Below, one piece after another: positions 1 through 13,443 of a stretch of DNA of 15,138 nucleotides. How positions within the stretch are numbered: position 1 is the stretch's first letter; each line of letters begins with the position of its first letter. The stretch is from the NCBI GenBank assembly GCA_025526915.1, contig JAHLKH010000395.1, forward strand, positions 1 through 15,138, written 5' to 3'. Source of the stretch: Entophlyctis helioformis. Taxonomy: Eukaryota; Chytridiomycota; Chytridiomycetes; Chytridiales; Chytriomycetaceae. The notes below the pieces were generated by a model that worked only from the letters and a program-made list of their open reading frames with translations, had not been told where the DNA came from and did no database searches. A program made the position numbers and the translations under genes.

Positions 1-57
1 GGTTCTCATCTGCTTCTCCAGACAGTTGCAACCCCGGTTCTCATACCATTACCCCTG
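1..57. other. Left edge, partial direct repeat
   Basis: The 9-mer GGTTCTCAT occurs at 1-9 and again at 36-44, a spacing of 35 bp. The window may therefore begin inside a short tandem array whose earlier units lie outside. Nothing coding is visible here. Confidence 0.3.
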
Positions 58-135
58 GTGGAATCGCTGTGATTGGTCGATCTTAGTGGAATCGCTGTGA
101 TTGGTCAACTCCTGGTGGAATCGCTGTGATTGGTC
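58..135. repeat. Three 21-bp direct repeats, each with an inverted CCAAT box
   Basis: A 21-bp unit (core GAATCGCTGTGATTGGTC) is present without mismatch at 58-78, 86-106 and 115-135. The 7-8 bp spacers differ (GATCTTA, then AACTCCTG). Period is 28 then 29 bp. Each unit ends in GATTGGTC, which on the minus strand reads GACCAATC, the CCAAT box bound by NF-Y/HAP complexes in eukaryotes. Regular spacing and perfect conservation of the unit against diverged spacers suggest either a regulatory cluster or a short minisatellite. Promoter use is an inference, since no confident gene starts next to it. Confidence 0.6.
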
Positions 136-141
136 GATCTA

Positions 142-1583
142 GAGAGCCCTTGCACGGTGCTGACACTGCGCGATGCGAGCACAGCAAGAACGCGCCATGC
201 CAGATCCAGACGCTGCACTTGCCGCCCAACTGCACACAAGCAACAACGAGCCAAACGACAACGACGGCAACGCAGGCGACAGCACGGATATGGGACAGCG
301 CTCGCTTGCTGGCCGAGTCCTTTCAGGGGAGACTGCGAGGCTCACTGCTCAAGGTGGCATGCAGCAGGCCATGCAGCAGGCTATCCAGCAGAGCAGCGTG
401 GTCGTGGCCGTCTGAGAGGCGTGCCCAACAAGGCGGGCGGACAGAAGGCAGGCTGCAGACAGGCAAGCAGGTGCGTTGACTCGCTGTCTGTCCAGGCATG
501 CTCCATTGCCCATCGACGACGACGGCACAGTAGTCTGACGGCCGTGTCTGTGTGGTCTTGGCACTGACTGTGTGCATGTCTGATGGGTCCAAACAGCAAG
601 GGACGTTGGCAAGACGGCCGTGAACAGGGCGATCTGGTTGTTGTTCAAGAGGACAGCGAGAGCATTGGCATCGCAGGACCAAGCTGTCTGGTGCTTTCCG
701 ACTGCGACATGGGATGCAGCAGCAACGATGAGCAGCCACTGAGACGTGCTCAATGGGCCGATCCTTGGAGTTGGCTGCAGGAACTGCTTGCTGGACAGCT
801 GGATTGGCATGCCGACTTGGATGCCAAACTCGGCAGTCGCAGCACACTCGATGAGCAGCACACTCGGAGACACTGATCCAGACGAGATTGGTGAGGAGGA
901 CGCGAGTGCTGGCAGGCGTGTCTGGCCACATTGCACTTGGTGCGATGGCATCTTGGATGCGATCCATTGAGCAGCACATGGAGTGGCCAGACAGACAGAT
1001 CAAGCACTCTCCATTCATTCAACAACCACAACGACGACGATGATGGCGACAATCCTGACGATCACAGTCTTGCATGCACTGTGTTTGTTGACAAGGACAA
1101 TCCAGAGCAGAGGGGCATTGCAGGCAGTGCGCCAACGACCAACCTGTCCATGGACCAGCTGGCCAGTCAGGCAACACCAACTGCATCGCACTGGGTCACA
1201 ATGCAGATGCATATCAGGACGATCGATGGATGCAGTGGGACATTGACTGAGAAGACGCTACTCGGAGAGACGCTCGCTGCAATGCAGCTCATGACACGCA
1301 GAGTGATGCTGCACGGTGCATATCAAGCTGCGCACTGAGTGGCATCACATCAATGACTGTGCCAGCAACACACGACCGCATCTTGAACGCCTGGCTGTTG
1401 GCTGTGCTCGCTGCTCGCTATTCCCTTGATGGCTGTTGGACAGTGGGCGGCAAGTGCCAGACTGCTCGCTCTCTATCGACTCACTCTCTGTTTTCATGCA
1501 ATGAAAAGTTCAACTCCGCCAGACGCTCCGATTCTTTTCTCGTAAACACAGATACAGACACCCCACGCACCAACAGCACCAGC
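142..1583. other. No defensible gene; short ORFs only
   Basis: About 1.4 kb without a convincing gene. Plus-strand ORFs at 173-415, 583-876 and 931-1338 have ordinary-looking composition: the first ends in a Gln-rich MQQAMQQAIQQ stretch, and the last has an NHNDDDDGDNPDD acidic run. They lie in different frames. I could join 173-415 to nothing with matching phase. A possible intron 471-596 (GTGCGT to AAACAG) would lead into the 583-876 frame, but third-position bias is weak. The stretch could be 5' untranslated or promoter sequence of the gene at 1584, a decayed gene, or a fast-evolving gene I do not recognise. Confidence 0.4.
1491..1507. repeat. 17-nt perfect palindrome
   Basis: TTTTCAT-GCA-ATGAAAA is a perfect 7-bp inverted repeat around a 3-nt centre. 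It lies 76 bp upstream of the chosen start codon at 1584. It could be a protein-binding site in the promoter or leader, or chance. Confidence 0.3.
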
Positions 1584-2979
1584 ATGACTTTGGTAGGCCT
1601 GCTGAGAGCCTTCAAGGTACGCCGTGCCGTCTGCGACCACACCGGCAAGACTTTTGGCCATGCTGTGCAGCGTGTGCTCCACAGCATGCTGCCACAACAG
1701 CCGCCTCTGCAACAGCCGCCGCCGCAACAGCAGACTGCAACAGCTGCAACAACAACAGCCGCAACAACAACAGCCGCAACCACCCAGTTCATCAGCGGGA
1801 TGCTGCACGTCGACTTCCTTAGCATCTTTCACCCAGCATTAGTCGCAACAGCCGCCATCAGCATGCCCGACTCCATTGACAGCTGGAAAGCCATCATCCA
1901 GCCGGCCTTTGAGCAGTTCATGGCATCCCTTGGCGGCGGCCACACCATCCGCTTCCATGTGGATGGCCAGCTTGGCGACCTGGGCCTCAAGCTGGTCCAC
2001 AACAGCCGCACCAACAACATGCTGCATGCGGCGGTCAAGGTTCTGCAGCATGCATTCCGCCGCCAAGAATGCAAGCAGACGGGATCACTTTCAAAGTAAG
2101 TTTGCTACTCTGTACTGTGTGGTTGCCTTACTGACCATTGTCTGCTGTTGGCCATTAAGGACAGAGAAGCACGCCCTCCACCGCTTCTTTTGTCTTACAA
2201 TTGCTGATAAGAAGGCGATCTATGAGGCTCTCTCAGAGCTGGCTGGATCCAAGGAGGCGTGCACAGTCTGCCCATGCGACTATGAGGCAGACGTGTGCAT
2301 TGCCTGCCGTGTTCGCGAGTCCAGGTTAGATCGCCTTGCATTCTTCTGCTGTAGTTGATGGCTCACAGTCTGTATTCTGTGACAGTGACCAGCCGATCAT
2401 TGTCATTGCCAATGACTCTGATCTGGTGGCACATTGTGCTGGGCACTGTGCAGTCATTTTGACGCACTTGGAGCATGGGCAGCTTGTGCAGATGCGATCC
2501 TACAACCATGGTGGGCTTGCCACCATGGCATCTGTCTTGGGCGTGCGCGACTTTGCTGGAGCATGCCAGCTGGTCGCTGCACTGTCCAGGACAGACTTTT
2601 TTGGCCGCAATGACCATGGTGAGTTGCCGCGCCTGTTTTGTAGTATCTGCCATCACTCACATGCCATTCTTTGTCTACATGCGCGATTCTGCTTGCATTC
2701 CCTGCCAGGAATCGCCGCCGCGGTCAAGTTTGTCAATGCGCGGTTTGATGCCAAGGCCAAACAGCTCAACATCAAGGCGGCTGACCTCTGCGCGATCCTC
2801 GAGACTCCTGATGAGGCCAAGGCGTTCATGGACACCATCAAGGACGCGTACATCGAGGAGCTGGTCAAGAATGGTGATGAGAGCCTTGTCCAGGCATTCA
2901 AGAATGCATTTGAAGTCTTTGTCAACCGGAATGAGGTTGGGGCCTCTGCTGGTGCAATCACAGCGCCGATCGTCGCGAG
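1584..2979 (+). other. FEN1/XPG-family 5' nuclease domain
   Basis: Four exons give a domain with the ordered acidic motifs of structure-specific 5' nucleases: HVDFL (first Asp), RFHVDGQ (Asp of the FDG-like motif), YEADVCIA at 2281-2304 (the EAEA-like pair), ANDSDLV at 2408-2428 (the DSD pair), and RNDHG just before the 2619 intron (the last Asp). All metal-binding positions known from FEN1 thus have a plausible counterpart, so the domain looks catalytically intact. A low-complexity Gln/Pro/Thr/Ala insert (about 1690-1785) separates the N-terminal GLLRAF motif from the first Asp. The helix-hairpin-helix region after RNDHG is diverged, which suggests a substrate choice unlike that of housekeeping FEN1. 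Confidence 0.7.
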
Positions 2980-5900
2980 GTATGTTTATTCTTGAAGGAT
3001 GTCATGGACATGATGGCATTGACGCGTTTGAATGCCTTGCACAGATCTGAGCCTCAAGCCGACCACACCAACCACATGGATGTCAACACGACTCCATCTG
3101 TTGGAATGAAGTATGAATGCATGGAATCTGTGGCGTTTCTGGCAAAACTGACACTGAGTTTCTGTTTCTGATGCTGCGATCTTGTTATTGTGCAGGTGCT
3201 TGATGGATGGATGCTGCTTGAGCCATACTGCGCAGCAGCAGCAGCAGGCTGAGAACGGCGTCCAGCTTGTCCACCTGACACGTGGCAGGGTCGAGCAGCT
3301 TGTCAGCAGCACTGTTGGCAGCAGGCGGTTGGATGCTGCATTTGATGAGGTGAAGGGTTGCCATGTGGCACTCGACACCATCATCAGGTGCACAGTCAAC
3401 CGCCTTGCGAGCAGCTACGATGCTGTTACGCGTCGCGACATCCTGGCGGCCATCTGCAAAGCAGCAAGTGCCCAGCTGCTGCAGATTGCCAGCGAGCAGT
3501 TTCTTGGAGCAGATGGCATTTTTAAGCTCCTCCCAGCAGATGAGCCAATCTATCGCGCATTGGTATGTTTGCATGGCTTGAATGCATGCTGTTGCTATCA
3601 CACCACGTGCATTTGCTGATTTTGAATGCGGCTGACTTGATCCATTGCTTCTGGACAGAACGCAGCAATGAGAATGCAGATGCAGCTCGACAAGATTGCC
3701 AATCCGCCATGCGCATCCCACCGGCATACATCCACTCCCAGTAGGTGTTGATTGCATTGAAATGATTCAACAGCTTCCACTCACAGATCCATTTGTGTTG
3801 AATGCATAGTACTGGACACAGAGACGCAGAAAGTCGAGTACCACGGCAGGATGACCACACGAGTTGCACCGCGATCCATTGTCGCTGCCATCCACGACAA
3901 GGCGTCAGCCTGGCTGTATTTCCTGGAGCACCCCATAGGTCCACATCCAGAAAACGCCAAACCGCCGACACTCATCAATCAGCGCCAAAAGGCCGTCGCC
4001 CTGCTGCAGTCCATCATTGAGCAAAGTGCAGTGCGTCTCGACTTCCACTGACTGCATGTGCATGGAATGATTTGGCGCGATTGCTCACCATCCCACTCCA
4101 CAGGTTGGTCCTCCTCCACCGCCGCCCAAGCCACCACGGTTGTCCAACAACATTTTCGCAGCACTGGCATGCTCCAAGACCTTTCCCGTTGGCGATCTTG
4201 CCGACACTGAGACGACGGTGAGTTTGGTGCACCATTGGCGATCGTGGCTGTGTTTGGTGCACTTGGAATGGCCGCCTGATGCTGCATCCAACCGTCACAG
4301 GCGCCATTCCAATTCACGGCAGCCAAGCGGGCTGCGCACACAAAGGAGCGTGCCAAGAAAAAAGAGAAGGCCACACTACAGGAGATCATCAGAGAGAACA
4401 AGAAGAAGTCAGGCCTGCATGCTCGCAAGGCTGGAACTGTTGGCAAGAAGCAGGCGTACGCGACATATGGCATGTCATGTGCCTTGAATGTGCTTGCTGA
4501 CAAGTGTCATGCCACAGATGGGTTGCTGGCAGTCGAGTGGCAACTCGTCAGAAGCTTGCAAAGCTCGGCCGCATGATTGCGATGCCAGTCATGACACTTG
4601 CCGCGGCCACCTATCCCAAAGGACAGCCAAGACCTAAAGGCAATGCACACAGCCGCCCTGAGCAGATTGTCAAAATGGCGGTATGGGGTTTGATCGGCAT
4701 GCTGCTCTGTTTGCTTGGCTTTGTGGATGCTGACTTGTGTGGTATGCAGAAGATGCAGTCATGCGATCTCGCAAACACCAAGTTTTTTGGGCCCCAAACC
4801 AAGACACCACTCGCCGAACAGACACCCAGTTCAATCAGCCACGACACCACCCTCACAGTCTACTATTTCACGGCCGGCTTGTGGCGTGCTGCCCTTGCCT
4901 TGATCGGCGCCATGGTCGCGGATCTGGTCAAGCTGGATGCAGACGCGCCTCTGCCTCTGGAGTACTGTGTCCTGGAGGCAAGCCAAGGCAAGTGACGCAG
5001 TATTACTATGTCAACCCCGAGGACTTTGACGAGGACGAGAGCGCGACGCTCTTGTCAGGTGGATGCATTCACAAGCAGGGCATCATTGTTTGGCACATGT
5101 ACGGCACCGGCCCGCACAGCAGCGACACAAAGATCCCTCGCTATGGCAGCTTGGTGACTCTCGAGAGTGACACGGCTCTCAAGATCTGCGCCTTTGATAC
5201 TGCCAAGATTGCCAAGCAACCCAACATGCATGGCGACCTCGACGATCAGGACAAGCAGAACGAGCACGACGAGCACGACGAGCAGGACGAGCAGGACGAG
5301 CAGGACGAGCACGACGAGCAGGACGAGCAGGACGAGCACGATGAGCACGATGAGCACAACGAGCAGGACGACCATGATGTGCACAATCAGCCGACAGCAG
5401 CGCCAGCAGCACCGGCGCTTCATCTTCAGCCGTCCAACCACCACCACCACCACCACCAGCAGCAGCAGTTCCATCAGCAAATGAGCTGCTTACGGCCCTC
5501 ACCAGCAGTATATCAGGTGGAGGCGGTGCTGTGGACATGCTGCTGCGCCATCTTGGCTATGTCCTGGCGGACAGCATGATGGTGCAGCCACAAGCAACAA
5601 AGCATGCCATCCACTCCTGGATTGTAACAGTCATGCAAATGACGATCCATCGCACCTGGACGCGGAGGGTGCTGCAAACCAACGCAGCCAAGCTGAAGGA
5701 TGACACGGTACGGATGGACATGATGCAGACGTGCACGATGCTGATGGACATGTCACTGATTGATGCAATGCAGCAGGCGGCCACGGCACACAGCGACACG
5801 TTCCAGAAAGACGCGCGGCAAGCAGCCATGATGGACATGGCACAGATGGACACGATGCGAGCAGCCATGATGGATGTCGACATGATGGACGCGACGCAGC

Positions 5901-8884
5901 AGACGGTGACAATCCAGGCCGACGCGATCCTGTCAGCCGTGGTGCAGGCAGATGCAGAGCTGTCGGCCTTGATGCACACAAGTGCGCAGACGGCAGACGC
6001 TGTGCACGCGGGCACTATGGAGGCTGTCTTGCCCTACAGGCTTGATGGCAGCCTTTGCGCAGATGCAAGGCATGACATTTACAGCAATCTGGCAAGGGAT
6101 GTGTGTGGCATGCTCGCGCGGCACTACATCTCCAGCCAGTCTGAGCTGGCCGTCACTGCGGCCCTCAAGCTGATGCCCAGTGCATCCATTGAGGACGTGA
6201 GAGTGTGGATTGCAACACTTTTCAAGACCGCCAAGGCTGCTGCTGCCAAGGCTGCCAAGGACGCTACACCACCAGCGATTGAGGACGCCACACCGCTGGC
6301 CACTTTGGACGCTGCTCCTCCCACCTCAAGTCTCAAGCGGGGCCGGTCCACCTCTTCGTCAGCCAACAAGGGCGGCAGGCCCAAGAAGCGACGGGGCAGG
6401 AAGGCAGCCACCACCAAGGACGCGGCATCCAGCTCTTCCTCGGCCACTGACGACGGCGGTCTTGATACAATCCCGCAAGAGCTGCACGAGCTCAAGACGC
6501 TGGTGCCTGATGTGTCTCGGTCAGAGATCGTGATCTTTTACAAGCTGTCCAAGCTTGCTGGCACGACAAACAAGCTGTGCCCGCAAGCAGCCAGCCGCGA
6601 CCCATTCATCCTCATCACCGAGACAACGCTCTTTTGGGCAGTGATGGGGAGTAGTGATGATCGCATCCGTGGCGAGCAAAGTGCTGCTTTGGCATACTTG
6701 CGACTGCAGCTCCTTGCTGTACTCAGTAGGTCGCACTGCCTGTTTATGCCATGTCTACATGATATGATGCTGACACTCCACTTTTATCCAAGACTACCAA
6801 AAAGCCAGCTTGGGTCTCGCATCACCTAACACGACGATCAAGAAGGCACTCAGCAATAGCAAGGAGCTCTGTATCCTCAACATACTCCTTCCCGGCCTCC
6901 GCCCCAAGAAAGGCCGCTATCAGACGCCAGACGAGGCCGACAAGGAGGTGTTTGAGCAGGTCCAAGCAAATGACACAGTCATTGCTGATGCGATGCAACT
7001 GGCTGAGCACGAGGGTCTGGTTGGCAAGGAGCGCCAGGAGTTTATAGACGCCGTGATCGATGGTCTTCCTCCTGCAATTCCAAGCAAACCGACCGCGGTG
7101 GGCAGCTTCCGGACGGACGGATACAGCATCTTTCAATTGGCGCTGGACTATCGCACAGACCGTCCAGAGTCGCCTCGCAGTATGTGGCGTGCTTGAATGC
7201 TTTGGTGCACACATTGGTTCTGACTGCCGCCTTGATCTGCATGCTCCAACATGGCAACTTTAGGCGAGCAGCCCAGCCTTGCTGATGGCATGCCTGATGA
7301 TGATGATGATGATGAGGCTGATGAAGTTGATGATGGGCATGATGGGCATGATCACTTGGATGGCGAATGTGAGTTGCTGTGCCAATCCAGACGCACACTT
7401 GTTGTCCACACCGACTGACATGCTATCCACAGCTGCCGATCCTGCCGACCCATCAGCCGCCAAGCCAAAAGCGACCAATCCTGTAAGTCACTTGCCTGCC
7501 AACCTCGCGCATTGGTGCACATGCATTGCACATTCCTCACTCATGCCATGGCATGACAGGGCAAGCTCAGCTTCTACGCCTCGCAGCGATTGCTCAACAT
7601 TGTCAAAGCCAACAAGTTGTTCACCAACAAGGGCTACCGGTTTGTGCGGATTGTTGGCATTGATTGGGGCGAGCGGTACATGTATGGCGCGTCCAGCATG
7701 CTGGTGGATCTGGCAACCTTCACCTATACCCTCGAGTCCAACTACGTGCTCTCCTCTGGCATGGCACGAGCCGAGCACAGCCTTCAGCGGTGGTATGCAT
7801 GCAATGACTCTGCCACGCGCACTCTTGACCTGATCAACTCACAGTGCCTGCCTCTTGTGCCAGGTTTGCTGATCGATATGCCAAGGCAGCCGACATCCAG
7901 GCGGCCATTGCATTCAAGACAGCAAAGCATGCCGATCCAGGCGTCTCAGCAGGCGAGAGAGCCTTTTGGGATCTGCGCTGCCATGCGTACTGCACGCCAT
8001 TCTTGAATGCACGGGTACGTTTTCTCTGTTTCTGGATGCCCATTGCCATGGCCGCCATGCTGCTTGATCGCATGCTGATCACACTGGACGGCATGGCATG
8101 GCATGGCATTCCACAGAAGGTCAAGGCCAAGCGGTTCACCATGTGCAGCAACCGCACGTCTGATCGCGGAAACGCTCTTGAGGGCATCATGAATCTGGCA
8201 GGCTCGACCACTAGATATCGCGCATCTCGTGCATCTCAAGGCCGCTGTGACAAGCCAACAGAGAAGGACATCCCTGTTGTATGGGCATTTGGCATCGACT
8301 TTACAGGCCAAGGTGGCAGGCACGCTGTGTTTGAGAAGTTTCTCATCAGGCATCTGCGGTCGTCTGGATATGCCTATGTGCGTCTGGATATGCCACGCTG
8401 TCCATCCATCTGTGCACCAACTGACCACACGATCATGCACACACACACACAGATCTACCGCTGCAATGAGAACCTGACCAGCCAGATGTGCCCGCAGTGC
8501 AAGCAGCGGATCCCATACGAGAACCGCACCAACCTGCGACGCTACGAGTGCATACCATGCAAGACCGTCTACCACCGAGACGTGCTTGGAGCCACCAACA
8601 TCGGGATGGTCGCACTGTGGCATCTGCTCTATGGACAACGGCCGCTCTACTTGACGCACACGCCACCTGACAGCAATCCAGCCACGCCAGAGCACCTTGC
8701 AGACATTGAGGCAACTCATCATGGCATCCAGTGGCGTGCACAACATCACATCATGCTGCTCGCGATACCGCCTGATCAGCCTGTCATCCAGCAGCCTCCG
8801 TCACCCGATCTGCTTCCCTTCAAGTCGCATGTGGCCTCATGGGATCAGATCATGCTGCCATGTCTGCCAACAACAACACTTTGA
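1584..8884 (+). CDS. FEN1/XPG-like nuclease fused to Fanzor/TnpB-type RuvC nuclease
   Basis: Predicted two-nuclease protein of about 1,955 residues in 20 exons. Introns: 2096-2159, 2325-2385, 2619-2708, 2980-3044, 3111-3195, 3563-3658, 3741-3809, 4031-4103, 4218-4300, 4456-4517, 4681-4749, 4927-5000 (weak donor GTCAAG), 6726-6792, 7180-7263, 7369-7432, 7483-7559, 7793-7863, 8015-8116, 8378-8452. All are GT-AG, and phases match across every junction. Residues about 1-400 carry FEN1/XPG acidic motifs, about 1287-1309 a nuclear localisation signal, and about 1600-1956 a RuvC nuclease with zinc ribbon. The start at 1584 (MTLVGLLRAF) resembles the MG-GL start of FEN1-family proteins. One -1 frame break near 5378-5485 is unexplained. 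From memory, the architecture resembles very large uncharacterised proteins of Mortierella-type fungi; unverified. Fanzors are RNA-guided DNA nucleases carried by eukaryotic transposons. It could instead be two adjacent genes split near 5500. Confidence 0.72.
3045..5000 (+). other. Central linker of the fusion protein, exons 5-12
   Basis: Eight small exons code for a region I cannot assign to a family. Visible features are a poly-Gln run from CAG repeats (3233-3247), a proline run (VGPPPPPPKPP, exon from 4104), a Lys-rich probable helix (KERAKKKEKATLQEIIRENKKK, exon 4301-4455), and a hydrophobic stretch near 4861-4926. Every junction up to 4750 has a standard donor and matching phase. The join from the frame ending near 4992 to the frame starting at 5001 is doubtful: a 74-nt intron 4927-5000 with donor GTCAAG fits the phase, but coding-like third positions continue to about 4990, so a 1-nt deletion is the alternative. 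Confidence 0.5.
5239..5372 (+). repeat. Acidic GAC-GAG-CAC/CAG tandem repeat (HDEQDE)
   Basis: About 130 bp of imperfect 9-bp units GACGAGCAC or GACGAGCAG. In the coding frame this gives a run of Asp-Glu-His and Asp-Glu-Gln triplets inside the fusion protein. The frame is open throughout the repeat. Repeats of this kind change copy number easily, in multiples of three bases. Confidence 0.8.
5441..5468 (+). repeat. CAC then CAG triplet run near a frame break
   Basis: A run of CAC triplets is followed by CAG triplets. In the upstream frame it reads HHHHHHQQQQ; in the downstream frame it reads poly-Pro then AAA. The switch between these two frames must occur between 5378 and 5485. No GT-AG pair of normal length gives the right phase, so this low-complexity stretch is the likely place of a 1-nt indel. 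Confidence 0.6.
5700..6015 (+). other. Met- and Asp-rich segment
   Basis: The open frame contains an unusual cluster of methionines, for example MMDMAQMDTMRAAMMDVDMM, encoded by repeated ATGATGGA and GGACATG-type words. The segment looks like a diverged internal repeat. No domain is recognised. Confidence 0.5.
6335..6403 (+). other. Nuclear localisation signal
   Basis: The codons give KRGR, then a Ser/Asn spacer, then GRPKKRRGRK. This is a classical bipartite or monopartite import signal, flanked by Ser- and Ala-rich disordered sequence. Eukaryotic Fanzors are described as having acquired such signals, since their DNA targets are nuclear. Confidence 0.75.
7560..8884 (+). other. Fanzor/TnpB-type RuvC nuclease domain with zinc ribbon
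   Basis: Exons 7560-7792, 7864-8014, 8117-8377 and 8453-8884. RuvC-I is RIVGIDWGERYMYGAS, with the catalytic Asp codon at 7662-7664. A strand reading VVWAFGIDFTG (about 8276-8308) sits where RuvC-II is expected but lacks the usual glutamate. A zinc ribbon follows, with CPQC (codons 8489-8500) and CIPC (8549-8560). RuvC-III is HRDVLGATNIG, catalytic Asp at 8579-8581, then LLYGQRPLYL. The order RuvC-I, RuvC-II, zinc ribbon, RuvC-III is that of TnpB and Fanzor. The 8378-8452 intron is a multiple of three without stops, so retention would still give an open frame; removing it restores the expected spacing before CPQC. A 71-nt intron 7793-7863 explains the frame change after HSLQRW. Confidence 0.8.
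8438..8450. repeat. CA dinucleotide run at a splice acceptor
   Basis: A short (CA)n tract runs directly into the AG acceptor at 8451-8452 of the last intron of the fusion gene. Confidence 0.6.
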
Positions 8885-9093
8885 ATCGGGGGACCTCCCG
8901 ATCGACCTAACGGGTCACTTTACGAAGGTGAGACCCTTGTTGGATGTGCCTCGCCCGCCTGTCGTGGCATGCTCGTTGCTGACTCGAACCTTGCATCGTG
9001 TGATATGTGGGCTTGCATCCGTCGCCTCTTGGGTCGAATTTAACTCCAAAATCCTTGGTAATTGTTTGAATATCGGGTCCAGTTGCAGGCCCC
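8885..9093 (+). other. Intergenic region: possible guide-RNA/right end or MTA1 leader
   Basis: Only 209 bp separate the Fanzor stop from the methyltransferase start. Near the left side are a GC-rich inverted motif (GGGGGACCTCCC, 8888-8899) and a hairpin at 8912-8936: GGGTC pairs with GACCC, two further pairs follow, and the loop is small. In described Fanzor loci the guide RNA is encoded just 3' of the protein and overlaps the element end, so this would be the place to look. Against that, GAAG|GTGAGA at 8924-8933 and TTGCAG at 9083-9088 could be the two ends of a 161-nt leader intron of the next gene. The sequence does not decide between them. Confidence 0.35.
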
Positions 9094-10502
9094 ATGCTTC
9101 GCATCGGTCGTTCTGCTGACGAGGCCGAGCTCCGGCGGCTCCTGGCGAGGGAGGAAGAGCTGCAGCTGCGCATCGACACACTCATTGAGAGCCTTGCGGT
9201 TCTTGAGGCAGACTTGAGCACGGCCAATCCTGTGGCCGCAGCAGAAGCGACGACGCTGTCCGATCGTCTGGACGATGCAGCCTCTGTCGCCACAGCAAGG
9301 GCTGCGTCGCCTGCAACGCCTGCACAGGCTCAGCCTTCAATAGGCTCGCACACTGGCGGCTTGCCTGTCGCACACTCTCCAGAAATGGCCTGGGCTGCAA
9401 CGACACCTGCAATGCCGCCTGCCCAGTATCCGAACGAACGCTCGGCCAGCGCCGTTGTCGATGGAAAGGGCGTCGCCTCTGTATCTGCTCTTGACGGGTC
9501 CGCCAGCGAATGCATCGCAGATGGCGACGATGTCGCAGGTTGGTCCAAGCTGCATGCATCTTGCGCCATGGGCTCCCACTCGCGGCTTTGGCCAGAGCCG
9601 TGGCCAACGATTGTTCTCAATGCCGTGCACAGATCCCAACAGCTTTGACGAGTTCGAAGCGCCCGAGTGGTGTGTGCCGATCAAGGCGAATGTGCTCGAC
9701 TTTGAGTGGGATGTAAGCGGCGGACCCCGTTGCATGCCGCTGTGCTTATCCCAGGCGCAACTGACGGACGCAATCATCCTCAATGGGCATTGCAATGCTT
9801 GCATGGCAGGCACTCGCCGAGGCATGCCAATTCGACATTATCAGCATGGACCCACCTTGGCAGCTCGCCTCGCATGCACCAACCCGCGGCGTAAGTGCAA
9901 GGGCAGCTGCCGTCAAGTTACCCTCCGCGCAGACGCGACAGCTAATCATGCATGCACATCAACATAAAAGGTTGCCATTGGATACCAGCAACTACCGGAT
10001 CTGCTGATAGAGACCCTGCCAATCGAAAAGCTGCAGACAAACGGGTTCATTTTCATCTGGGTCATCAACAACAAGTACGCCAAGGCATTTGATCTCATGA
10101 CCAAATGGGGATACGAGTACGTGGACGACATTACATGGGTGAAGCAAACAGTCAATCGACGCATGGCCAAGGGTCATGGCTACTACTTGCAGCACGCCAA
10201 AGAGACGTGTCTGGTCGGTCGCAAAGGAAACGATCCACCGGGCTGTCGCCACGGCGTTGCTTCAGACGTCATCTTTTCTGAGCGTCGCGGCCAAAGCCAG
10301 AAGCCAGAAGAAATCTATCTGATGATGGAAGAGCTTGTTCCAAACGGTGTGTTCATCCTCGCATCTCTTGATGCTGACCAAAGACTAGTGCAGCGGGCTC
10401 ACACTGGAATCACGACGCTATGCAACAGGCAAGTATCTTGAGATTTTTGGCCGCAAGAACAACCTGCGAGACTATTGGATCACAATTGGCAATGAACTGT
10501 AA
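9094..10502 (+). CDS. MTA1: MTA1-like N6-adenine DNA methyltransferase (MT-A70 family)
   Basis: Predicted S-adenosylmethionine-dependent N6-adenine methyltransferase of 351 residues. Exons: 9094-9538, 9633-9712, 9810-9890, 9971-10346, 10429-10502; all introns are GT-AG (80-97 nt) with matching phases. The catalytic DPPW codons are at 9849-9860, within FDIISMDPPWQLASH. Later motifs FIWVINNKYAKAF, WGYEYVDDITWVKQT, KGHGYYLQHAKETCLVG, SERRGQSQKPEEIY and LEIFGRKNNLRDYW end in IGNEL and the stop. This set fits the MTA1/AMT1 branch (6mA at ApT in ciliates and basal fungi) better than METTL3/IME4, which has DPPWDIHMELPYGT. The first 45 residues form a charged probable coiled coil, then a Ser/Ala/Pro-rich linker. 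The start is the first ATG after a possible leader acceptor. MTA1 acts in a complex with partner proteins not present here. Confidence 0.85.
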
Positions 10503-10679: not shown

Positions 10680-13443
10680 TCAAACCCCGACTTTGCGGCT
10701 GGGAAGAGCTTCCGTCTGGTCTGGTTTCTTGCCAATGGCGCGACGCTCAGCATTGAGCATCTTGTTGACCGCGTTGATGTACGCTTTCGCCGACGCGACC
10801 AGAATGTCTGCATCAACACCTTGACCTTGGATCGTGTCCTCGAGATGGACCGTTTCCAGCTCGTCGCTCTCAATGCGGGGGATCTTGCTGGGTCTCTCGT
10901 CCGAAGAGGCCGACGATGGCAATGCGTCTGTCGCAGAGGCCTTGGCGCCCTGTTGGATGCGCACAATGACCTTTCCAAGAGAATCAGAGCCTTCCGTGAT
11001 GGCCTTGACTTCATAGGATGCCAGAACGTTTTTGAAGCCGACAAGACGGTTGATGGCACTGAAAATAGCATGGACAGGCCCGTGGCCAATGGCGGCATCC
11101 GTCAACACGCGTCCGGTTGGTGGTGCCTGAGCCGGGGCGTGCTGCGCGTGTGCCTGCGAGCTATCGACGAGGCTCGGTACCGACTCGCCAGAAGAAACAG
11201 ACGGCAGAATCTCGGTCTCTGAGGGCGACTTTTCCATCGGCAGCGGTGCACAGGTTGTGTCTGTGATGGTGACGGTGGCAGTCGAGAGGATGCCGCTGCC
11301 AGAAAGAACTTGCAGAGCGCCAAACTTGTACGTTTCGTGGCCAGAGCTCACGAGGTTAAGCTGATCGTCCAGGAGGGCGAACAGGTCCTGGTCCCGCACG
11401 CCGTTCTTTTTCGAGTCGGCAAGCTTCTTAAAGGCCACAAAGAGCGATTCGTAAACCAAGGGGTCGCGAGCCAGGTAGTCCTGGTAGATGGTGTTCTTGG
11501 AAATGTCGTCGATGCGGGTGCGGAATGCATTGCGGCCAGAATGCTTGCCAAGAACAAGTGCCTTGGACGGGATTCCGAGAATCTCGGGCTGGATGATTTC
11601 GTAGGTGGCCTTGTGCTTTAGCACTCCGTCCTGGTGGATGCCCGACTCGTGGGCGAACGCGTTGGCACCAACAATGGCCTTGTTGGGTTGGATAACCATG
11701 CCCGTCTTTTTCGTGACAAGCTGCGATGCGTGGTAGATCTGGTACGTGTCAATGGTATGATAGACGGGGAATGCCGTCGGATGGGTGTGAATAGCCATGA
11801 CAATCTCTTCCAAGGACGTGTTGCCTGTGCGTCGCAGTGTCAGCAACTCGAGCACAGCATGGCACTCAAGATGGGCGATATAAAACGCCGAGGAATACCT
11901 GCGCGCTCGCCAATGCCATTGATGGTCACTTCGACCTGTCTTGCGCCATTGCGAATGCCAGCAAGGGTGTTGGCTGTCGCGAGGCCAAGGTCGTTGTGGC
12001 AATGTGTCGAGAACACGACCTAGTTGCAGAAAGCGTTTGTCACTACGAGTCCAACGATCCTGCAGGCTCGGCAGATGGCGCCAACGCCATAAGTCGGCAG
12101 GCATGATGCATGGCAGTGCACGACGCACCTCGCTGCTTGATTTGACATTGTCCACAAGGTACTTGATGATGGAGCCGTACTCTTCCGGCGTGTTGTATCC
12201 CACCGTGTCGGGGATGTTGACGGTTGTGGCACCCGCAGCAATCACAGCCTCCAAGACTTGGACGAGAAACTTGCGGTCGGAGCGGCCAGCATCCTCGGGA
12301 GAGAACTCAATGTCGTCGCAGCCCAGAGACTTGGCGTACTGCACAGCAGCAACAGCCCTGCTGATGCATTCTTCGCGCGAGATCTTGAGCTTGAACTGCA
12401 GATGGATGTCTGATGTTGCCAGGAATGTGTGGATACGTCTGCGAGGAGCTGCCCGGATAGCGTCGAACGCACGCTTGATATCCGTCTGGACCGCTCTTGC
12501 CAGCGCGCAGATGACCTTGGCAGTGTGTCAGATGAATCAGGGATGCACACGAGACAGACTGCAAGGGAGGCTGCAAGGCGGAGTGCGCAGCCCGCCCGAC
12601 CGAGTTCAGCGTGTGGCAACACCCGCACGTGCAAAGCGTGTTGCAGCGCGGGATGAATGAATCCACGAGCAGAAGCAGAGCCACCACAACAAGGCGGAGG
12701 GGGATCTGGTAGGCCATGCACAGCAGGGCAGAGAGGCAGACGGACAGGCAGACGGAGAGGCAGACGGAGAGGCAGACGGACACGGACGCAACGAAGCGAC
12801 GCTACCATTGGAGTGCCAGTCTTGCGGCCTGCCGTCAGCGGGCCAACCTCGACAGCAATGCGACGAACAGCCTCAAAGTCGCCATCGGACGCAATCGGAA
12901 AGCCAGCCTCGCAGACGTCGACGCCCAGGCGGGAGAGCTGTTTGGCAATCTCGAGCTTCTCGGATACGGTGAGGGTGACGCCGGGCGACTGGCACCGTCG
13001 AGCGTGTGTGTGTGTTCATAGCAATGGGGTCGCAGAGGGGCTGTGTGAGCATCAATGTTGAATGTCTGGCGGAGCACATGCACCGTTGGCATGCACCGTT
13101 GGCATGCCGGCAACAGCAGCCAGCAGCACGCAGCCATGCGCCGAGAGAGGCTGCACAGCACGGCGCAGCCACGGCCGCCACACACCTGCTCTCCGTCCCT
13201 CAGCGTCGTATCAAAGATGATGAGGCTGGAGCGTTCATCGGTCAGACATTCGCGCGGCCATGTTGTTGGAGGTGAGGAGAGGGTTTTGGCTTTCGCCGAC
13301 AGATGGCCGCGTTTGTTGAGCACACACCGGTGCCGCCAGATACGGCCCACGCCCACAGCTTCCCAGCTCACCGCCAGCAGAACAGCCAGCAGAACAGCCA
13401 GCAGAACGGCCAGCAGACGCTCGGCAACCGAAACAGCTCGCAT
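10680..13443 (-). CDS. leuA: 2-isopropylmalate synthase, bacterial/plant type
   Basis: Condenses acetyl-CoA with 2-oxoisovalerate, the first committed step of leucine synthesis. About 697 residues. Exons in transcript order: 13443-13186, 12988-12806, 12515-12129, 12019-11899, 11824-10680; introns 197, 290, 109 and 74 nt, phases consistent. Catalytic signatures: [12 protein letters not shown] (end of exon 1, metal Asp), [40 protein letters not shown] (metal His pair), [15 protein letters not shown] and [13 protein letters not shown] LeuA regulatory dimer domain follows ([15 protein letters not shown] to [20 protein letters not shown]), so leucine feedback is likely. Ser/Pro-rich inserts lie before and inside that domain. 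The first about 65 residues are hydrophobic and Arg-rich with a LLAV repeat and may be a mitochondrial presequence. The start is the first ATG after an in-frame TGA (13458-13456). It resembles bacterial and plant enzymes more than the yeast LEU4 type. Confidence 0.9.
12735..12782. repeat. Four 12-bp tandem units in the second synthase intron
   Basis: The unit GGCAGACGGA(C/G)A is repeated four times, at 12735, 12747, 12759 and 12771. It lies inside the 290-nt intron of the isopropylmalate synthase gene (12516-12805), where it has no coding role. Confidence 0.75.
13078..13103. repeat. Two 13-bp tandem units in the first synthase intron
   Basis: ATGCACCGTTGGC occurs twice in a row without mismatch, inside the 197-nt first intron of the synthase gene. 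A GT run (13004-13014) lies in the same intron. Confidence 0.6.

Follow-up and report, generated by a model that had tools for sequence, protein, structure and literature searches.

The accessible portions of the Fanzor papers (PMC10432273, PMC3627910, PMC10711439, PMC11423790, PMC11071296) describe Fanzors as RNA-guided nucleases with a single RuvC domain; what they do for the element that carries them is still debated. Fanzor1 proteins share the motif D-X(125,275)-[TS][TS]XX-C4-X(5,50)-RD (Bao and Jurka 2013, PMC3627910). Published copy numbers include 42 loci in S. punctatus (PMC10432273) and ~150 in one red-alga family (PMC3627910). An additional domain, FRI, is reported in the available text of PMC11423790 only from Parasitella parasitica and Rhizopus. 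The name "Fanzor flap endonuclease homologs (Fendons)" is applied in the available part of PMC11071296 to candidate homologs in large animal-virus contigs. The literature searched, mostly papers outside subscription and in part seen as excerpts, contained no Fanzor fused to a FEN/XPG domain, and a search of it for Fanzor together with Chytridiomycota found nothing.

We analyzed a stretch of 15,138 nucleotides of Entophlyctis helioformis (contig C395; hereafter, the window). Comparisons were run within this one genome of 29.6 Mb and 482 contigs. Window positions 31-9079 are one copy of a high-copy DNA transposon family with inverted ends and an 8-bp target-site duplication (TSD). In blastn searches, similarity to other copies extended from near the left window edge to ~9080 and ended there. 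The left and right TSD copies (23-30 and 9080-9087) both read CAGTTGCA. The left terminal inverted repeat (TIR; 23 bp, 31-53, + strand) was located by motif search, for which a reversed-pattern control gave 0 matches, and the right TIR (9057-9079, - strand) by motif search and end comparison. The initial annotation had suggested transposition or homing as a possible purpose and had set the unit at 1584-8884; the TIRs and TSD supported a mobile-element context, and the extent had to be enlarged to the whole transposon. Left ends of the family start GGCCCGGTTCTCATACCATTACC, and the right ends of 31-32 loci and the window read ...TTGGTAATTGTWTGAATRTCGGG with few changes, the flanks beyond being different. 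Compared as inverted repeats, the two ends agree in 19 of their 23 positions, a figure that falls to 16 of 23 for the window copy. A subterminal array of ~28-bp repeats (51-140, + strand; unit GGTGGAATCGCTGTGATTGGTCGATC) adjoins the left end and has one to five units per element, the number differing among copies. It is followed by a 5′ region without a recognised gene (141-1583, + strand).

Window positions 33-53 matched perfectly at 59 genome places, the window's own included. With up to three mismatches, the left-end motif occurred at 99 places (at least 2 of its 13 three-mismatch rows being right ends on the other strand) and the right-end motif at 192 places; reversed controls gave 0. Pairing of ends, which took in 86 of the 99 left places and 100 listed of the 192 right places, yielded at least 38 pairs of a left and a right end on one strand; 27 of these pairs span 7.2-9.8 kb and the others are longer. 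None of these 38 pairs was a short derivative ("ghost") element. An 8-bp TSD was present in five of the seven copies having both TIRs (the window and the copies on C63, C66, C102 and C138). The C239 and C198 copies had a TIR at both ends without a duplication, and no TIR was found in the left stretch compared for C36 and C122. In view of the published Fanzor counts of 42 and ~150, the copy number is high, not unprecedented.

Several observations concern the surroundings of the copies. Three loci on C408, C36 and C122 (L009, L075 and L081) have the same right flank and may represent a duplicated segment or allelic contigs. At L012, L017, L021, L024, L025, L026 and L032, the right end is ~50 bp longer (GCCATTTGCCGGCGG...) before the flank begins; the extension is shorter in L017. 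In the window, the right TSD ends 6 bp before the ATG (9094) of a possible MT-A70 (METTL3-like) first exon at 9094-10441 (+ strand), within which the MT-A70 domain lies at 9968-10441 (+ strand; Pfam E 7e-24). An insertion preference just upstream of start codons was considered and rejected: 42% of 33 flanks had an ORF of at least 60 aa, vs 45% of controls. Farther along, frames at 10680-13015 (- strand) resemble, by their translation, what we take to be an isopropylmalate synthase gene. Elsewhere, locus L003 (G000:C2:289838-292999) holds a fragment that corresponds to 8271-8665 and 8774-8894 of the window and lies directly downstream of an apparent host FEN1 gene, in opposite orientation to it.

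The sole recognised gene of the element is a giant one (1584-8884, + strand; ~1,975 aa). It comprises exons 1-7 (1584-2095, 2160-2324, 2386-2618, 2709-2979, 3045-3110, 3196-3562, 3659-3740), exons 8-13 (3810-4030, 4104-4217, 4301-4455, 4518-4680, 4750-6725, 6793-7179) and exons 14-19 (7264-7368, 7433-7482, 7560-7792, 7864-8014, 8117-8377, 8453-8884). Six-frame comparison with diverged copies showed that 1584-8884 is conserved as coding sequence along its length. With GT-AG introns placed by hand, the exons join in phase, as had been proposed, but they number 19 and not 20. The motifs that the initial annotation had pointed out, namely the FEN acidic motifs and RuvC-I, CxxC/CxxC and RuvC-III, were all confirmed. 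The ~1,200 residues of the protein middle (3045-7482, + strand) have no recognised domain and are coding by dN/dS below 1; part of this middle should be the Fanzor region that precedes RuvC.

The C-terminal part is a predicted Fanzor (TnpB-type) RuvC nuclease. The RuvC-I exon (7560-7792, + strand) contains the GIDWG aspartate (codon 7662-7664), the exon at 8117-8377 (+ strand) covers the VWAFGIDF... region between RuvC-I and the zinc ribbon, and the last exon (8453-8884, + strand) contains the NENLTS glutamate (codon 8468-8470), the CxxC/CxxC ribbon and the HRD aspartate (codon 8579-8581). The glutamate was identified from its position ahead of TS-xx-C4 and not from a structural alignment. The Fanzor motif D-X(125,275)-[TS][TS]XX-C4-X(5,50)-RD is present, with 188 residues from D to TS and four from the last cysteine to the H of HRD, hence five to RD. 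Across copies, both aspartates are conserved in 31 of 31 sequences, and the glutamate and each of the four ribbon cysteines in 30 of 30 with one gap. The TNB/OrfB zinc ribbon PF07282 matched in the C-terminal half (E 9.9e-10; 38.9 bits, cut-off 26.3), and NCBIfam TnpB models matched the same stretch under their cut-offs. In PHROGs and PADLOC, the C-terminal part matched mainly transposase, TnpB- and Cas12-type families, along with families of unknown function and a Csx1 model (E 0.0011). Sequence search of the PDB gave no match for this part, AlphaFold prediction of window 7865-8704 read through two introns gave a pLDDT of 37, and queries with the N- and C-terminal domains found no relatives among viral contigs. 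A genome search with PF07282 scored at least 150 places of 205 candidates, all 150 above cut-off.

A conserved noncoding region (8885-9079, + strand) lies between the stop codon and the right end of the transposon; alignment and folding make it a candidate omegaRNA scaffold. Mean column identity of 8878-9080 was 83% in an alignment of 32 copies. In copies whose third-position divergence exceeds 0.2, the region was 7-17% diverged, below every codon position. A stem ATCGGG...CCCGAT is invariant, and a terminal stem with one compensated pair adjoins the right end. One stretch is highly variable in sequence and length; 11 of its 12 distinct variants form a hairpin, and for 7 of these 11 the fold was equalled or surpassed by no more than 6 of 300 shuffles. 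The variant present in the window did not fold. A single-sequence fold of the whole region was no better than shuffles (z -0.54; 50 of 200 folded equally well). The alifold consensus, which lacked the variable hairpin, had a two-sided change in just 1 of 37 pairs and little covariation overall. Rfam gave no match at gathering threshold; an asX2 match on the opposite strand (E 0.81) was taken as chance. The same position is taken by the omegaRNA in SpuFz1 and by the SfAV Fanzor reRNA, and elements that form a TSD have it joined to the guide-RNA scaffold, according to the available text of PMC10432273 and PMC10711439. The region is a candidate guide RNA, probably structured in part.

We consider it fairly probable that the window holds a decayed transposon copy whose gene joins a FEN-like 5′-nuclease and a Fanzor on one chain, serving a guided cut, tethered trimming and retention of the element. 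The 3′-end RNA, reading into the flank, would direct the Fanzor part to the donor site, when empty, or to the sister site, where it would make the cut. The tethered FEN-like 5′-nuclease would trim or resect the cut ends, and repair would then copy the element back from an element-bearing template. Mobilisation would depend on a transposase acting in trans, or on one hidden in the unrecognised protein middle. We infer every activity in this scheme; what was seen in the data is the element with its ends, the two motif sets, and the conservation and linkage of those sets. Taken by itself, an end-processing role for the FEN-like part is a tentative proposal that we hold with some doubt. The domain could act at another step instead, in guide-RNA maturation or, as part of a transposase, in cutting at the ends or at flaps when the transposon is excised. 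FEN/PIN-type nucleases are able to act on RNA or branched DNA. The translated gene had no Pfam match above cut-off except PF07282, and neither DDE nor any other known transposase was recognised; we therefore assign no transposon superfamily. This lack of a recognised transposase domain favors the other-step explanation and nothing specific argues against it; we regard it as rather unlikely.

The N-terminal part is likely a FEN/XPG-like nuclease domain, a prediction that lies below family cut-offs. Exon 1 (1584-2095, + strand) encodes D77 (HVDFL) and D127 (FHVDG), exon 2 (2160-2324, + strand) E213 and D215 (YEAD), and exon 3 (2386-2618, + strand) D236 and D238 (NDSD) and D296 (SRTD). The NDHG motif ends at G304, and exon 4 (2709-2979, + strand) encodes a helix-turn-helix-like GIAAAVKF and what lies downstream of it. 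We take these residues to be the seven acidic metal-ligand positions of FEN1/EXO1, in order. Among 20 distinct paralog rows, six of the seven acids were conserved in 19 of 19 with one gap each, and D296 in 20 of 20; all seven were invariant in copies down to ~60% identity. The genome's own EXO1-like frame contains YEAD and TEDSD.

Family searches with the N-terminal part gave results below thresholds. For residues 1-864 of the protein in the window copy, the sole Pfam match was a weak one to XPG_I_2 (E 0.66). XPG_I_2 was also the best match in three of four paralogs scanned (E 0.0026, 0.058 and 0.016), the best paralog scoring 17.7 bits vs a cut-off of 24.2; the fourth, L072, matched SlyX alone, which was taken as chance. 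Thus, of the two family assignments made initially, profile searches confirmed the C-terminal one and left the N-terminal one under cut-off. A genome search with XPG_I_2 gave matches at other genes and none at the transposon family. No FEN-family chain was among the PDB sequence matches of N-domain queries up to E 10. Alignment by hhalign with a FEN/EXO1/XPG profile put YEAD, NDSD and SRTD in register, but with E 0.11 and a probability of 0.5%. PADLOC gave no match for the N-terminal part and PHROGs two unknown families (E 0.19-0.26). AlphaFold prediction of a partial frame (L051 exons 2-4, in-frame introns read through) gave a pLDDT of 35. None of the 20 rows, that of the window among them, fitted a strict FEN regular expression. 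Two expressions loosened after this failure matched 16 and 15 of the 20 rows, vs 26 and 0 of 100,000 shuffles; rows that failed mostly lacked parts of exons. Because the loosening was post hoc, the statement that the resemblance exceeds chance rests mainly on seven-acid conservation and on linkage of the N- and C-terminal domains. The unmet Pfam cut-offs, the paralog without an XPG_I_2 match, the failed strict expression and the PDB searches without a FEN chain would suit a diverged or unrelated fold that is not a working FEN nuclease, e.g., an inactive Asteroid/XPG-like DNA- or RNA-binding domain. The invariance of all seven acids, dN/dS well below 1 and XPG_I_2 as sole or best match in three paralogs argue against such a fold, which we consider improbable.

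The two domains recur together throughout the genome, in line with the co-occurrence that had been anticipated. An N-domain exon lay upstream on the same strand, ~6 kb off, at no fewer than 64 of the 150 listed zinc-ribbon places, and within 9 kb downstream on that strand at 0 of the 150; opposite-strand N-domain exons were found at 3 of the 150 (2 upstream, 1 downstream). Among 114 listed C-terminal places, at least 63 had a same-strand N-domain exon upstream within 9 kb, 0 had one downstream within that distance, and 0 had one upstream on the opposite strand. Viewed in reverse, at least 64 of 155 merged N-domain places had a listed zinc ribbon no more than 9.5 kb downstream. These counts are lower bounds, some contigs ending early. 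The N-to-C distances were tightly clustered (interquartile 5.8-6.1 kb).

The initial annotation had described two nucleases in one protein, with a single low-complexity break. Two nuclease-like domains do lie in one exon series, but two frame breaks keep the window copy from encoding one uninterrupted protein. The first break is at 4990-4995 (~4993, + strand) and the second in a low-complexity stretch at 5370-5395 (~5380, + strand); other copies read through each. The C198 copy (L076) has one open frame across both sites and around 5500, the diverged C66 copy (L085) also reads through both, and the close C36 copy (L075) passes the first site and has its own break nearby. Pfam matches on 5001-5377 were weak low-complexity ones (best E 0.013), all under cut-off. 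The window copy, with its two frame breaks, is therefore a degenerate member of the family, though open frames exist across the region in other copies. Where the frame is open, we infer a full-length product consisting of one chain, with an N-terminal FEN-like domain, the ~1,200-residue middle and a C-terminal Fanzor RuvC domain. A fixed cassette of two adjacent genes, one FEN-like and one Fanzor, with their boundary in the low-complexity region at ~5200-5500, is a very improbable explanation: both window breaks fall within 4990-5395, the C36 copy is also broken there and the putative boundary is a low-complexity acidic/His/Gln stretch, but the C198 and C66 copies read in frame through it and coding sequence is conserved on either side.

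Selection was estimated as dN/dS by the Nei-Gojobori method against the window; ranges are those among the comparisons listed. Values were 0.26-0.38 for the FEN domain (dS >0.3), 0.24-0.40 for the first part of the middle (where dS was near or >1) and 0.42-0.76 for RuvC. From these values, both halves look to have experienced purifying selection in the past, which seems to have been no weaker on the FEN part than on the RuvC part.

Divergence was distributed unevenly between exons and introns. When loci were compared with the window, introns had diverged less than third codon positions in 68 of 71 cases and less than second codon positions in 63 of 71; some of the 71 are overlapping pieces of one copy, and the closest copies are among the exceptions. 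For 29 loci of the C half, intron divergence was below exon divergence in 371 of 406 pairs (medians 0.11 vs 0.175). The 5′ region (141-1583) was 4-11% diverged from other copies regardless of exon divergence. Exon 3 (2386-2618) is a mosaic of ~40-60-bp blocks in combinations that vary by copy (L042-L046, L052), and the introns flanking it are 98-100% identical in several copies; other exons, too, are made up of short diverged blocks combined differently from copy to copy. In the N-half set of 17 copies, diversity was 0.14-0.18 in exons 1-3 and 0.13, 0.09 and 0.015 in their introns; exons 5-10 (0.01-0.035) did not differ consistently from their introns. In the C half, the introns at 6726-6792 and 8378-8452 were as diverse as some exons. 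Minimum numbers of recombination events were 25 on 206 sites for exons 1-4 (10 copies) and 46 on 129 sites for the C exons (30 copies); introns gave 4 on 20 sites and 20 on 49 sites, indicating that recombination is not confined to exons. The pattern fits frequent short-tract gene conversion that would homogenise ends and introns, with exon variants kept by selection for diversity; intron constraint or an exon-limited process are alternatives. A wider reading would make the protein a single-chain retention machine (a Fanzor with its own 5′-flap or resection nuclease) and add exon diversification by short-block shuffling among >100 dispersed copies, greatest in the FEN domain and in the part that precedes RuvC, with introns and ends more uniform. 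We offer this reading only as an unlikely, speculative one; if it is true, the pattern resembles loci under selection for diversity. If the exon mosaic is general, it would be a case of pressure for diversity acting on the evolution of a transposon protein.

As for the preferred reading of a guided cut with tethered trimming, a high-copy natural fusion to a 5′-nuclease domain would couple RNA-guided cutting to end processing. The idea of retention by cut-and-copy would become testable in eukaryotic elements, one domain being mutated at a time, and the fusion could suggest engineered fusions that steer break repair. The N-terminal domain resembles the FEN1/EXO1/XPG superfamily, including Asteroid-type XPG_I_2, in its seven ordered acids, basic residues after the second motif and GI[GA] turn, all of which have roles in that superfamily. 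It differs from the superfamily in that similarity is under family cut-offs and in being fused to a Fanzor. Fendons differ from the gene described here, no fused FEN domain being described for them in the accessible part of PMC11071296.

The element is like the Fanzor1 elements of fungi and other eukaryotes in the accessible part of PMC3627910: it has the RuvC/zinc-ribbon motif, with spacings of 188 and 5, and is a DNA transposon, as are the Fanzor1 carriers, some of which lack their own transposase. Unlike the MuDR-like fungal Fanzor1 elements, which have a 9-bp TSD, it has one of 8 bp, and unlike Fanzor1 its protein is ~1,975 aa long with an extra N-terminal nuclease-like domain (PMC3627910). 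PpFz1 of Parasitella is also a Fanzor1 with an additional domain; that domain, FRI, was tested against cyclophilins and is not presented as a nuclease in the available text of PMC11423790, whereas the extra domain here is nuclease-like. SpuFz1 of Spizellomyces punctatus (Saito 2023, PMC10432273, available portions) is encoded by a single ORF in a locus of ~2.1 kb; the present element is ~9 kb long, and its gene has 18 introns and encodes a FEN-like domain at the N terminus. Its metal ligands D383, E541 and D606 correspond to D, E and D here by motif position, not by alignment. SpuFz1 is TIR-flanked like the present element, and its noncoding RNA lies between the stop codon and the right end, as does the candidate RNA of the transposon described here.
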